A DNA stretch of 64,000 nucleotides from Amycolatopsis thermoflava N1165. Its GTDB lineage: Bacteria > Actinomycetota > Actinomycetes > Mycobacteriales > Pseudonocardiaceae. A model generated the notes under the pieces. The model saw only the letters and a program-made list of their open reading frames with translations. It had not been told where the DNA came from and searched no databases. The stretch spans positions 7,271,909-7,335,908 of the forward strand of contig NZ_KI421511.1 in the NCBI RefSeq assembly GCF_000473265.1, in the 5' to 3' direction. Both the position numbers and the translations under genes were made by a program. Positions 56,959-60,025 of the stretch are shown piece after piece. The first letter of the stretch is position 1. Every line of letters starts with the position of its first letter.

Positions 56959-58488
56959 TCAGAACGGCCAGCGCGCGACGCGGCCGGCTTCCAGCAGCGG
57001 GATCATCCGGAAGGCCGCGTCGGTCAGCCCGCCGAACGTGTGCCGGTTGCCCAGCCCGGACGGCGTGCCGCCGTACCGGTACCCGGCGACGTTCCACACG
57101 TAGAGCGGAACCCGGCGCGGCAACCCGGCCGACGCGTCCGCCGTCGCGGACTGCTCGTCGGTCAGGAGGACGACCCGGTCGTGGCGGCGGTAGTGCCTGC
57201 GCACCGCCGCCGCGGTGTTCGTGGCCGAGAACATGTCGAGACTTTCCACGAACGGCAGCAGTGCGCCGTCGCGCGGAACCTCGACCTCGCGGCTGTCCCA
57301 GCCGAACACCACGACCGTCGGCTTCTCCGCCCGCACCGCCAGCGCGCACCCGAACACGGCGGCCTGGTCGGCGAACGTGACGGCCGACCGCCGGTCGCAC
57401 ATCCACATGGAGGCGGACCGGTCGATCAGGATCAGCGTCCGCCCCGGCAGGGACGGCACGTTGGCCAGCGACGCGTCCAGGGCCCGCTCCAGAGCCGCGT
57501 CCCACCGCGACGACCGCGCGGAGCGGTAGGCGGACAGGAACCGGAACGGGAACTGCCGCGACCGCGCCACCTGACCCGGATCGGCGAGCCGCGCCGCCAC
57601 CCGGTCCGCCACCTCGTCCGGGATGCCGGCCTCGTCGAAGTTCCGAACGTTACGGAGGAGTGCCATGTACCCCATGCCCGGGATGACAGCCTGCCAAGCC
57701 TCGGCGTCCAGCGGGCCCTGCAGCCACCCGGCGAGCGCCTCCCACGTCATGCCCGCCCCGCGCAGCTCCGCCGGGTCCAGTGCTGTCCGGCGCTGGTCGA
57801 CCGGGAGTGCCATGAGCGCCCGTCGCCGGGTCAGCACGGTCAGCTCCGGCGCCGGCGGGCCGTCGCGCAGGATGTGCTCGAACAGGGCGTCCTGCACGGC
57901 GTCCCGCGGCGCCGGGTGCACCAGCCGCAGCACGTCGGCGAACCGCACGCCGCGGTTGCCGCTGTCCCACTTCAGGAAGGACCGCTCGTCGTACAGCGCG
58001 CGCACGGCGTCGGCGACCCCGCGCTTGACGGGCTTCGGCAGGCGGCGGCCGTACCTCGCGAACCAGTACGCGATGAGCTCACCCGGCTCGTCCGCGCGCT
58101 GCAGGACGCTCGCCACCACGGCGCGGTTCGACAGCCCGTCGTCCGCGCGGTTGTCCAGGCGTGCCTTGACGAACTCGGCCGCGCCGACGAGCGACGCGGA
58201 GCGCATGTTCGCCTCGGTGCGCAGCCACCGCAGGAACCGGGAAGTCCACTGTGGATCCTTCAGCGTGACGCGGCGGACCAGCTCGGCGTACCGGCTGTCG
58301 CGGTCGTCCGCGGCCTCGTAGAAGGTGTCCTCGCCGACCATGTTCGCGACCGCGAGCAGGAACAGCTCGGACTTGGCGTCGCGGACGTGACCGGCGCCAC
58401 CCTGGTGGTTGACGACGCCGGGCGCCGCGACCGTGACGATCGGGGACCGGGCCGCCGGTCTTCGGCGGAGCAGGTTGAACTTGGACAT
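56959..58488 (-). CDS. rsr: Ro60 orthologue Rsr (TROVE + VWA RNA-binding protein)
   Basis: 509 residues from ATG 58488. TROVE domain (~20-340): 'NHQGGAGHVRDAKSELFLLA', 'LLAVANMVGEDTFYEAADDR', 'LRWLRTEANMRSASLVGAAE', 'NRAVVASVLQRADEPGELIA', followed by a VWA (~345-505) with MIDAS 'TLILIDRSASMWM' (D-x-S-x-S) and 'FSATNTAAAVRRHYRRHDRV'. Ro proteins are ring-shaped and bind Y RNA on the outside and misfolded or single-stranded RNA ends in the cavity; the bacterial form works with PNPase and RNA turnover. The Y RNA candidate is directly upstream. Confidence 0.92.
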   Translation of the reverse strand: MSKFNLLRRRPAARSPIVTVAAPGVVNHQGGAGHVRDAKSELFLLAVANMVGEDTFYEAADDRDSRYAELVRRVTLKDPQWTSRFLRWLRTEANMRSASLVGAAEFVKARLDNRADDGLSNRAVVASVLQRADEPGELIAYWFARYGRRLPKPVKRGVADAVRALYDERSFLKWDSGNRGVRFADVLRLVHPAPRDAVQDALFEHILRDGPPAPELTVLTRRRALMALPVDQRRTALDPAELRGAGMTWEALAGWLQGPLDAEAWQAVIPGMGYMALLRNVRNFDEAGIPDEVADRVAARLADPGQVARSRQFPFRFLSAYRSARSSRWDAALERALDASLANVPSLPGRTLILIDRSASMWMCDRRSAVTFADQAAVFGCALAVRAEKPTVVVFGWDSREVEVPRDGALLPFVESLDMFSATNTAAAVRRHYRRHDRVVLLTDEQSATADASAGLPRRVPLYVWNVAGYRYGGTPSGLGNRHTFGGLTDAAFRMIPLLEAGRVARWPF

Positions 58489-58514
58489 GCCGGCCTCGCA
58501 AGGGGAAGGGGAGA

Positions 58515-58645
58515 GCCGGTGACCTCGGACAGGCCCGAGAAGGGAGTCGGTGAAGGTCTTCACCTCCCGAAAGGAGGGCAGGAGTCGAACCTGTGGACCA
58601 GAAGTAACCCTCGCCTGCGCACCGGGCCTGTCCGAAGTGGCCGGC
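58515..58645 (-). ncRNA. Candidate bacterial Y RNA (YrlA-like) upstream of rsr
   Basis: Minus-strand RNA. Ends pair over ~21 bp: 58645-58641 with 58519-58515 (GCCGG/CCGGC), a 2x2 internal loop, 3 pairs including one U-G, and a perfect 13 bp run (58635-58623 with 58537-58525, TCGGACAGGCCCG/CGGGCCTGTCCGA). Inside: a T-arm CAGG-TTCGACT-CCTG (58593-58579) flanked by GAGGG/CCCTC (58612-58608 with 58578-58574), i.e. an acceptor/T-arm-like minihelix, and a 6 bp hairpin 58564-58549. Terminal Ro-binding stem plus tRNA-like module is the known YrlA architecture. It ends ~26 bases before the rsr start. Confidence 0.8.
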
Positions 58646-58656
58646 GTGCGGAGATC

Positions 58657-58684
58657 AGCGTACGAGCCCAGCGCCCTGGAACAA
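58657..58684 (-). promoter_or_regulatory. Candidate promoter of the Y RNA
   Basis: Minus strand: TTGTTC (58684-58679), 16 bp, TACGCT (58662-58657, TANNNT). Predicted start near 58650, 5 bases before the first paired base of the terminal stem. rsr may be read through from the same promoter. Confidence 0.5.
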
Positions 58685-58741
58685 ACCGGTTTTCCACGCC
58701 CGGTGACGCTGCGTGCCCGGCAGTGGATCACACTAGTCCGG

Positions 58742-60025
58742 ATGGAGGCTTTTCCTTGCCCCGAGCTGGGCGAGTGTGGATTGTTGAGCGACGTGAGCCA
58801 GTCCAGTGATCCGGCGACCGCCGATCCGGTGCGGGACCGAGCCCGGACCTTCGACCACCTCGACCCTGCCCAGGCCGCGACGATCCACGAGACGCTGGCA
58901 GCGTTCCGGAAGACGTGCCCAGTAGCGCACAGCGAGGCGCACGGTGGGATGTACGTGGTGACTCGGTTCGACGACCTGCGGCACGTGGCCCGGCACGGCG
59001 AAACCTTCTCCTCCGCGGCCGAGGTCGGCGCCGTGGTCGTGGCGCCGGAGACCGGTGGCGTGATCGCGCCGCTGTTCGAGCAGGACCTGGAGGAGCACGC
59101 CGGCTGGCGCCGCCACCTGCAGCCGTTCTTCACCCCGCCCGCCGCGGCCGGGCACGAGGACTACATCCGCCGCGTGGCGCGGGAAGTCGTGGCCGCTCTG
59201 GCGCCGCGCGGGCAGGCGGACCTGGTGCCGGACCTGTGCGCGAAGATCCCGCCGCTGGTGATCGCGTCCCTGCTGGGCCTGCCGGAAGAGCAGCGGCCGA
59301 CGCTGGCCGCGCTCGTGCACGGCCTGGCGGCGGCCGACAGCGCGGCGGCCGCGGAGGCGATCGGTCGCGAGTACACCGAGTTCCTGCTGGCGCACATCCG
59401 GTCCCGCCGCGGCAAGTCCGGGTCGGACGTCCTCACGTCGGTGGTCAACAGCGAGATCAACGGCAGGCTCGCGAGCGACCACGAGCTGCTGAAGTTCGCG
59501 TTCCTGCTGATCGCGGCGGGCAACCTGACCACGACGGACCAGCTCGCCAGCATCCTGCTCGAACTCGCGCAGGACCCCGCCCTGCGCCGGCGGGTCGTCG
59601 CCGAGCCGGGGCTGATCCCGCAGCTGGTGGAGGAAAGCGTGCGGCACGAGTCCGCCGTCGCCGCGACCGGCCGGACGGTGGTGCGGGAAACGGAGCTGGC
59701 CGGCGTCCCGCTGCGGCCCGGTGACCGGATGCTGCTGACGTGGGGGTCGGGCAACCGCGACGAAGAGCACTTCCCCGACGGCGACGAGTTCCGGCTGGGC
59801 CGTCCGCGCCGCCCGCACCTCGGCTGGGGCGCGGGCGCCCACCGCTGCCTCGGGCTGCACGTCGCCAGGGTCGAACTGCGGGTCATCTGCGAAGAGTTCC
59901 TCGCGGCGATCCCGGAGTTCACGCTCCCGGACGGCTTCGTGCCCGAACGGACCTACGGCGTCATCCGCGGGGTGAAAGCGCTTCCGGTGACCTGGCCCGT
60001 CCAGGCCGGCCCGAGCGGGAGTTGA
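58742..60025 (+). CDS. Cytochrome P450
   Basis: 427 residues from ATG 58742; GTG 58793 (410 residues) is an equally possible start. Haem-binding 'HLGWGAGAHRCLGLHVARVE' with the axial Cys369, ExxR in 'QLVEESVRHESAVAATGRTV', and an I-helix 'FAFLLIAAGNLTTTDQLASI' with AGNxT in place of the usual AGxET/DT. 'FTPPAAAGHEDYIRRVAREV' fits bacterial class I enzymes needing a ferredoxin and reductase, none of which is nearby. Substrate unknown. CACACT at 58729-58734 would be the -10 box of a leaderless mRNA from 58742. Confidence 0.88.
   Translation: MEAFPCPELGECGLLSDVSQSSDPATADPVRDRARTFDHLDPAQAATIHETLAAFRKTCPVAHSEAHGGMYVVTRFDDLRHVARHGETFSSAAEVGAVVVAPETGGVIAPLFEQDLEEHAGWRRHLQPFFTPPAAAGHEDYIRRVAREVVAALAPRGQADLVPDLCAKIPPLVIASLLGLPEEQRPTLAALVHGLAAADSAAAAEAIGREYTEFLLAHIRSRRGKSGSDVLTSVVNSEINGRLASDHELLKFAFLLIAAGNLTTTDQLASILLELAQDPALRRRVVAEPGLIPQLVEESVRHESAVAATGRTVVRETELAGVPLRPGDRMLLTWGSGNRDEEHFPDGDEFRLGRPRRPHLGWGAGAHRCLGLHVARVELRVICEEFLAAIPEFTLPDGFVPERTYGVIRGVKALPVTWPVQAGPSGS

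Follow-up and report, generated by a model that had tools for sequence, protein, structure and literature searches.

Y RNAs usually depend on Ro proteins for stability, and in the YrlA kind the T-arm is followed by the acceptor arm. In tmRNA and other mimics of the tRNA top half, the cloverleaf is incomplete and a T-arm stacks on an acceptor-like helix. Three papers (PMC11472068, PMC8394870, PMC7790460) describe YrlA as having D, T, and acceptor parts that superpose on tRNA as a circular permutation, and as a substrate of DusA and TruB. One of the three, a Cell Reports paper, suggests that YrlA might competitively inhibit an anticodon nuclease. Two of them (PMC7790460, PMC8394870) also describe a Deinococcus Y RNA that tethers Rsr to PNPase.

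We analyzed a 64,000-nucleotide stretch of the Amycolatopsis thermoflava N1165 genome (the window), in which the gene for an Rsr protein lies behind a structured element at positions 58515-58645 of the minus strand. Judging from sequence, we put the probability at roughly 0.86 that this element is a Y RNA, the RNA partner of Rsr, with a reduced tRNA mimic that lacks the D-arm and the anticodon arm. Position, frame, and covariation identify the predicted RNA as a reduced variant of the YrlA kind. Like Salmonella YrlA (PDB 6CU1), it combines a tRNA-like module with a terminal stem to which Rsr would bind, and it is encoded with rsr; Salmonella YrlA has D, T, and acceptor arms, whereas the window RNA has no D-arm, a comparison made by published description rather than by sequence. 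The RYPER complex of Deinococcus radiodurans (Rsr, Y RNA, and PNPase; PMC7790460, PMC8394870) also joins Rsr to a Y RNA with a proposed tether role; this likeness too is one of description, and PNPase tethering at our locus is putative. The window RNA differs from tmRNA and the other top-half mimics in that its acceptor is a closed hairpin and a Ro-type stem joins its two ends. A literature search for D-less or anticodon-bearing Y RNAs, which missed key primary studies of bacterial Y RNAs, found no report of either, and a search on Amycolatopsis small RNAs or Y RNAs returned no paper.

The rsr gene and its neighborhood

The rsr gene occupies positions 56959..58488 of the minus strand and codes for a 509-residue bacterial Ro60 orthologue, as judged by Pfam, structure matches, and conserved residues. 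An earlier reading made from the sequence alone had called the gene complete, with TROVE and VWA parts and an intact MIDAS, and our searches bear this out. The reading frame is complete from the ATG at 58488. Pfam matched TROVE at 54.3 bits (cutoff 23), and residues 24-502 align with the solved TROVE protein 9kop (E 7e-27), followed by a second structure match, 9l5y. No vWA family model is among the listed Pfam matches of Rsr, and we assign the vWA part from invariant motif residues and from the alignment to 9kop, which covers nearly the full length of Rsr. D356, S358, S360, T423, and D444 are invariant in 16/16 aligned Rsr sequences; from the DxSxS...T...D motif, we take these to be the MIDAS residues. 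Rsr therefore shows the combination of TROVE and a MIDAS-bearing vWA domain that defines bacterial Ro60 orthologues.

The 8.69-Mb genome contains a single rsr match. The closest named Rsr proteins that we found are from Amycolatopsis tucumanensis (94% identity), A. deserti, and A. thermalba (86% each). The genes on either side are both on the plus strand, with a NicO transporter downstream of rsr and a P450 upstream. As listed, the P450 reading frame (58550-60025, plus strand) overlaps the Y RNA on the opposite strand. The true P450 start is probably the GTG at 58793, which would leave about 300 bases between the divergent genes.

Structure of the predicted Y RNA

Covariance models and pairing within the clade delimit an RNA of about 131 nt including its lower 5-bp stem (58515..58645, minus strand), with a core at 58522-58638. 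It lies on the same strand as rsr, 26 bases from the start codon when measured from the lower stem and 33 when measured from the core, which is the placement next to rsr expected of a bacterial Y RNA gene. The sequence-only reading had proposed a same-strand RNA of about 130 nt at this place, and the boundaries, the stems, and the folding statistics agree with it: the folding z-score for 58490-58660 is -2.6, and only one of 200 shuffled sequences scored as low.

The ends of the RNA pair in a long stem that carries conserved internal-loop sequences, as is characteristic of bacterial Y RNAs. This terminal stem is 17 bp long counting G-U pairs. Its 5' strand lies at 58622..58638 and its 3' strand at 58522..58538, it presumably binds Rsr, and GCCGG/CCGGC forms the lower stem beneath it. 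The conserved internal loop at the long stem reads GGTGCGCAG...CTCGG, and the motifs GGTGCG and CTCGG are common to the window RNA and the units of its relatives. All 17 pairs form in all six members of the window clade. Seven pairs changed on both sides and all still pair; these changes all stem from one divergent member, L006. Two further pairs have a one-sided change (in L006, and for one pair also in L010). Covariation of this stem had been proposed as a check of the earlier reading, and we found no uncompensated stem change in the six clade members, each of which keeps rsr.

Within the terminal stem, helix 2 pairs GGCGAGGG (58608..58615) with CCTTCACC (58549..58556). Seven or eight of its eight pairs form in each of the six members, with an unpaired C-A at one pair in four of them, and the helix covaries in the full-type relatives described below. 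The T-arm, CAGG-TTCGACT-CCTG, occupies 58579..58593 and contains the GG-TTCGACT-CC motif named in the earlier reading. Its four base pairs form in 6/6 members; the T-stem is invariant within the clade and covaries in full-type relatives, and the T-loop varies by a single base, in L006 only. Directly 3' of the T-arm, all six members have a hairpin of 6 to 9 bp, which in the window is CCTCCT-TTC-GGGAGG (58563..58577) and which we regard as the acceptor-like helix. The hairpin is built from CGCCTCC/GGAGGTG in L010 and from CCGTGCGGG/CCCGCACGG in L006. Across the three helices, 97.7% of cells are paired in the clade, compared with 32-58% in slid controls.

Short linkers occupy the places of the missing arms. 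The 10-nt linker TTCTGGTCCA (58594..58603), with its TTC(Y)GG start, stands where full-type relatives have an anticodon arm. Alignments to the clade and to the covariance model R1, described below, place the 6-nt linker TGAAGA (58557..58562) where those relatives have a D-arm; R1 aligns to the window RNA with its D-arm region deleted, and the arm is absent in 6/6 clade members. Of the tRNA-like features of YrlA, the window RNA thus has the T-arm and an acceptor-like helix and lacks the D-arm.

The earlier reading had drawn a 5-bp acceptor-like helix around the T-arm, and this assignment proved mistaken, the acceptor equivalent being the hairpin 3' of the T-arm. The helix in question, GAGGG/CCCTC, competes with helix 2, which all six clade members keep. 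Pairing of the GAGGG/CCCTC type, with G-U allowed and in the best register, reaches 5/5 pairs in four of the six members and 4/5 in L010 and L006. The partner of GAGGG in relatives is CCTTC, the two strands forming helix 2, and most of the window's CCCTC belongs to the hairpin as its 5' strand.

The minimum-energy fold of the core (-59.4 kcal/mol) is lower by 6.9 kcal/mol than the consensus structure (-52.5 kcal/mol). The two differ in their inner folds, and the acceptor-like hairpin is missing from the former. Because the energy minimum is not the consensus structure, the inner structure that we propose rests on homology. Among 4227 Rfam families searched at the gathering threshold, none matched in the window, and the library may lack a bacterial Y RNA family. 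Relaxing the threshold to E values up to 10 within 58300-58900 gave two weak matches, neither of which is a Y RNA. ARAGORN called no tRNA gene in the window, and the Y RNA site is not among the 51 RF00005 matches of the genome.

Covariance searches and co-occurrence with rsr

For model R1 we used 34 full-type units from other genera (alignment A2) and excluded the window clade. These units are themselves strongly paired (97.6% of cells, with 19 of 31 pairs changed on both sides), and none of 500 shuffles scored as high on any of five measures. In the genome, the top R1 match is exactly 58522-58638, at 70.1 bits (E 1.5e-12). The runner-up scored 30 bits and spans two tRNA genes, and six of the eight other matches at E values up to 1 overlap tRNA genes. 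When the window was searched alone, the Y RNA scored an E value of 1.1e-14 and aligned end to end. That a model free of clade sequences ranks this site first genome-wide gives good support to the central idea of the sequence-only reading, an Ro RNP locus with a tRNA-mimicking Y RNA upstream. R1 recognized one Y RNA in the genome, with 150 of 9687 first-look candidates scored. In this search and in those with model R2, each genome yielded several thousand first-look candidates, of which 150 were scored; absence of a match is therefore not absolute.

Model R2 was built from the six window-clade members. It scored at least 108 bits in six of 19 genus genomes, which are exactly those with an intact rsr, and gave at most 27.2 bits or no match in the other 13 (12 without an rsr match, plus G012). 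Since R2 was trained on its six positives, only the 13 negatives are informative. In G012, the rsr match (C38:121017-122504, L007) has an internal TGA stop, and we found neither an upstream Y RNA motif nor an R2 match there.

Survey of regions upstream of rsr

We collected rsr loci from 79 named genomes, from the genus genomes, and from the family, in which 66 of 297 genomes had a match. A usable protein match was available for 144 upstream regions; with 13 duplicates dropped and the region of the broken G012 copy (L007/L008) excluded, 129 distinct regions were examined. L124 has no protein match. Each region extended 700 bases upstream, and units farther out are missed. Within this distance of rsr, 121 of the 129 regions contain the frame CCGGTGCG...GG-TAC-TTC...CTCGG.

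Units were found by pattern, and classes were overridden by hand for 23 of them. Full units have a T-arm, an acceptor hairpin, and a D-arm; H units have a plain hairpin replacing the D-arm; M units have only the T-arm and acceptor; and S units are short, without a T-arm. The 261 units comprise 114 full, 34 H, 9 M, 6 T-arm only, 89 S, and 9 unclear, class S including some false motif pairs such as those at -582 in the window and -566 in L002. Six of the nine M units are those of the window clade, which has one unit per locus. An M unit and a full unit stand side by side in two related genomes, L094 and L095. A MAFFT alignment of D-less units (A1, A3) misplaces acceptor hairpins, and its consensus was not used for the acceptor. 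The aligned units could serve as the basis for Rfam-type models.

Two features set the window RNA apart from full units. In tRNA, T-loop residue 59 lies close to the elbow on its D-arm side. It is a purine in 107/114 full units, 1/34 H units, and 3/9 M units (Fisher's p = 4e-25, relatedness ignored), and a pyrimidine in 33 of the 34 H units and in all six window-clade members. The missing D-arm alone does not explain the pyrimidine, because the other three M units and the six T-arm only units have a purine. The TTC(Y)GG start is found in 9/9 M and 20/34 H units, compared with 1/114 full, 3/89 S, and 0/6 T-arm only units. From the pyrimidine at 59 and the TTC(Y)GG start, we infer that the window RNA descends more plausibly from the H/M kind than from a full unit shortened recently, and a separate D-less kind of Y RNA may be its source. 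The sequence-only reading had called it a minimal form in which the D-arm and anticodon part is reduced to a short remnant. That description fits the short linkers, the 10-nt TTCTGGTCCA on the 5' side of the T-arm and the 6-nt TGAAGA past the acceptor hairpin; its implied origin from a longer unit is the part that a separate D-less kind would replace.

The H-type units of Lentzea, Streptosporangiales, and Nocardia resemble the window RNA in having a T-arm followed by an acceptor hairpin, the pyrimidine at 59, and, in 20 of 34, the TTC(Y)GG start. They keep a third hairpin at the place of the D-arm, whereas the window clade has a short linker. Such units with a third hairpin occur as the distal unit in Lentzea (around -445 in L022, L108, and L143), around -300 in Streptosporangiales, and at -406 in Nocardia L025. 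The third hairpin, for example GCTCACCTCGGTGAGC, looks like a D-arm that additional base pairs have closed. Reduction goes further than in the window RNA in lone T-arm units (CAGG-TTCGAAT-CCTG) without acceptor hairpin or D-arm, which we observed in Streptomyces smyrnaeus (L056, -247), S. spirodelae (L057, -256), and S. oryzae (L058, -257). Before hand correction, anticodon-arm-like hairpins were seen in 21/85 S, 5/41 H, and 3/15 M units; the rate in shuffled full-type units is 1%.

Less likely alternatives: a regulatory leader or a decaying remnant

The letters of the promoter proposed in the earlier reading are present, with a -35 element TTGTTC at 58684-58679 and a -10 element TACGCT at 58662-58657 (58657..58684, minus strand). 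The form TA[CT][GC]CT of the -10 is kept in the window, L011, L002, L009, and L010; the -35 is less well kept, and a consensus scan of 58400-58850 found neither a promoter nor a terminator. We therefore regard this as a possible promoter. Because consensus finds no promoter or terminator belonging to the Y RNA itself, the element could be part of the rsr leader, and the structure would then be a cis-acting 5' leader of the rsr mRNA through which Rsr autoregulates by binding. The shared strand, the 33 bases from core to start codon, and the similar distance of the last unit from the gene in many relatives are in keeping with such a leader. Against it, 89 of the 121 loci (91 before two window-clade loci with false S units were excluded) carry two to four units within 700 bases, mostly of different kinds, and a simple operator would not need compensated tRNA-like modules. 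Known Y RNAs also share one operon with rsr (PMC7790460), and both roles are possible for one RNA. We consider an exclusively regulatory leader unlikely.

Less probable still is that the clade is losing its Y RNA and that the inner module is a decayed, non-functional remnant. In favor of decay, the D-arm and anticodon arm are absent, and the clade has a single unit whereas several are usual in its relatives. Moreover, rsr has no match in 12 of 19 genus genomes and carries an internal stop in a further one. Decay would not be expected to leave the compensatory changes that keep both the stem and the hairpin in L006, whose protein is only 55-58% identical. The T-stem is unchanged in 6/6 members, and the one difference in the T-loop is a single base in L006. 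D-less units also occur in Lentzea, Streptosporangiales, and Nocardia.

A proposed role for the reduced RNA

The RNA upstream of rsr is conserved, its helices are paired across the clade, it co-occurs with rsr, and it has no D-arm or anticodon arm. If it is a Y RNA, it would be transcribed separately, bound by Rsr, and used to recruit a partner. In the model that we propose, the Rsr ring most likely holds the long terminal stem. The opposite end would present the top half of a tRNA, a T-arm followed directly by the acceptor-like hairpin. This minihelix could tether Rsr to a reader of T-arms, for example the T-loop-modifying enzyme TruB, or alternatively to an RNA-degrading partner, for example PNPase. 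The tethered partner would be steered toward structured or misfolded RNAs. Such a partner should not need the tRNA elbow, because the RNA has no D-loop for its T-loop to contact and no other Y RNA was recognized in the genome.

The locus would thus amount to a natural deletion experiment. Since the only recognized Y RNA has neither D-arm nor anticodon arm, the expected partner would recognize nothing but the T-arm side, and the reduced RNA limits the parts of the mimic that could be important.

Full-type relatives and an apparent permuted complete tRNA

Many actinobacterial Y RNAs appear to hold a complete tRNA that is circularly permuted and cut between nucleotides 28 and 29. Among the full units, as classed before hand correction, 67 of 115 have a 3-bp hairpin with a 7-nt loop of the form [CT]T-NNN-[AG]A after GGTTACTTC, a pattern found in 1.1% of shuffles. 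Anticodon-bearing full units are found, for example, at -178 in L106, -186 in L017, and -189 in L032, relative to the rsr start. Without the loop pattern imposed, a hairpin of 3 bp with a 7-nt loop is there in 94 of the 108 units whose D-arm could be parsed; in these, T33 is present in 81, a purine at 37 in 86, and A38 in 72, and positions 34-36 vary. Two bases after position 26 and two after the hairpin complete a 5-bp anticodon stem in 63 of the 67 pattern-bearing units. Dealt controls completed the stem in a mean of 23 and a maximum of 34 units in 1000 trials, and the best slid register, which shares one true pair, reached 49. ARAGORN called a tRNA in 67/67 modules placed in restored order, in 0/67 in native order, and in 43/67 with halves mixed between units. 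Some of the remaining full units seem, by eye and uncounted, to be cut in the anticodon loop instead.

These relatives bear on the idea that the tRNA likeness of the window RNA arose by chance, in an Rsr-binding RNA that is merely rich in hairpins and happens to have a TTCGA loop: its T-arm has just 4 bp and ARAGORN is silent in the window, but the T-arm stands at the same place as in full-type relatives, R1 aligns end to end, and all 67 pattern-bearing modules read as tRNAs once un-permuted, so that chance likeness is scarcely credible.

The anticodons of the pattern-bearing full units are diverse, with 27 kinds, and show no tie to the tRNA body. Glu-like and Leu-like D-arms, as we took them to be, first gave us the idea that full-type Y RNAs recurrently captured different tRNA genes, and this idea is not supported once anticodons are masked. 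The nearest of the 51 tRNAs of our genome shares the amino acid of the module's anticodon in 12/67 cases (shuffles, mean 4.3; 1/2000 as high), which is no proof of capture because the anticodon itself adds to the identity. With anticodons masked, agreement fell to 6/67, equal to chance (mean 4.6; 603/2000 as high), although two of the 51 native tRNAs escaped the mask. Identity between module and nearest tRNA was 0.72-0.83, and the test is weakened by reference tRNAs from another genus than the modules.

In the complete forms, the loop frame of C/U32, U33, R37, and A38 is kept while the anticodon drifts and mismatches the body, which suggests that these RNAs may serve as decoys or baits for anticodon-loop enzymes. 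A link between Ro RNPs and tRNA modification, cleavage, or repair would follow from complete permuted tRNAs whose anticodon loops are intact yet variable. Actinobacterial Ro particles may use a graded series of tRNA mimics, from the complete permuted tRNA through D-less forms to the lone T-arm, in which the window clade would have lost the decoy role and keeps only the T-arm and acceptor; we think this picture, decoys included, somewhat doubtful. If it is true, the single Y RNA of the window clade would isolate a T-arm-dependent function of Ro RNPs.

Contigs from a viral collection also carry these modules. We found 234 stretches that encode Rsr relatives, and 66 of the best 80 loci (L196-L275) hold motif-bearing Y RNA units. 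In 18 distinct units classed as D-less there, T-loop residue 59 is A in 13, against the rule for D-less units; by eye, several of these units have D-arms that the pattern missed. The same 80 loci contain 48 distinct full units, 29 of them with the anticodon pattern. In these 29, bases pair across the cut in 27 (controls, mean 14 and maximum 21 in 1000), and ARAGORN calls a tRNA in 29/29.
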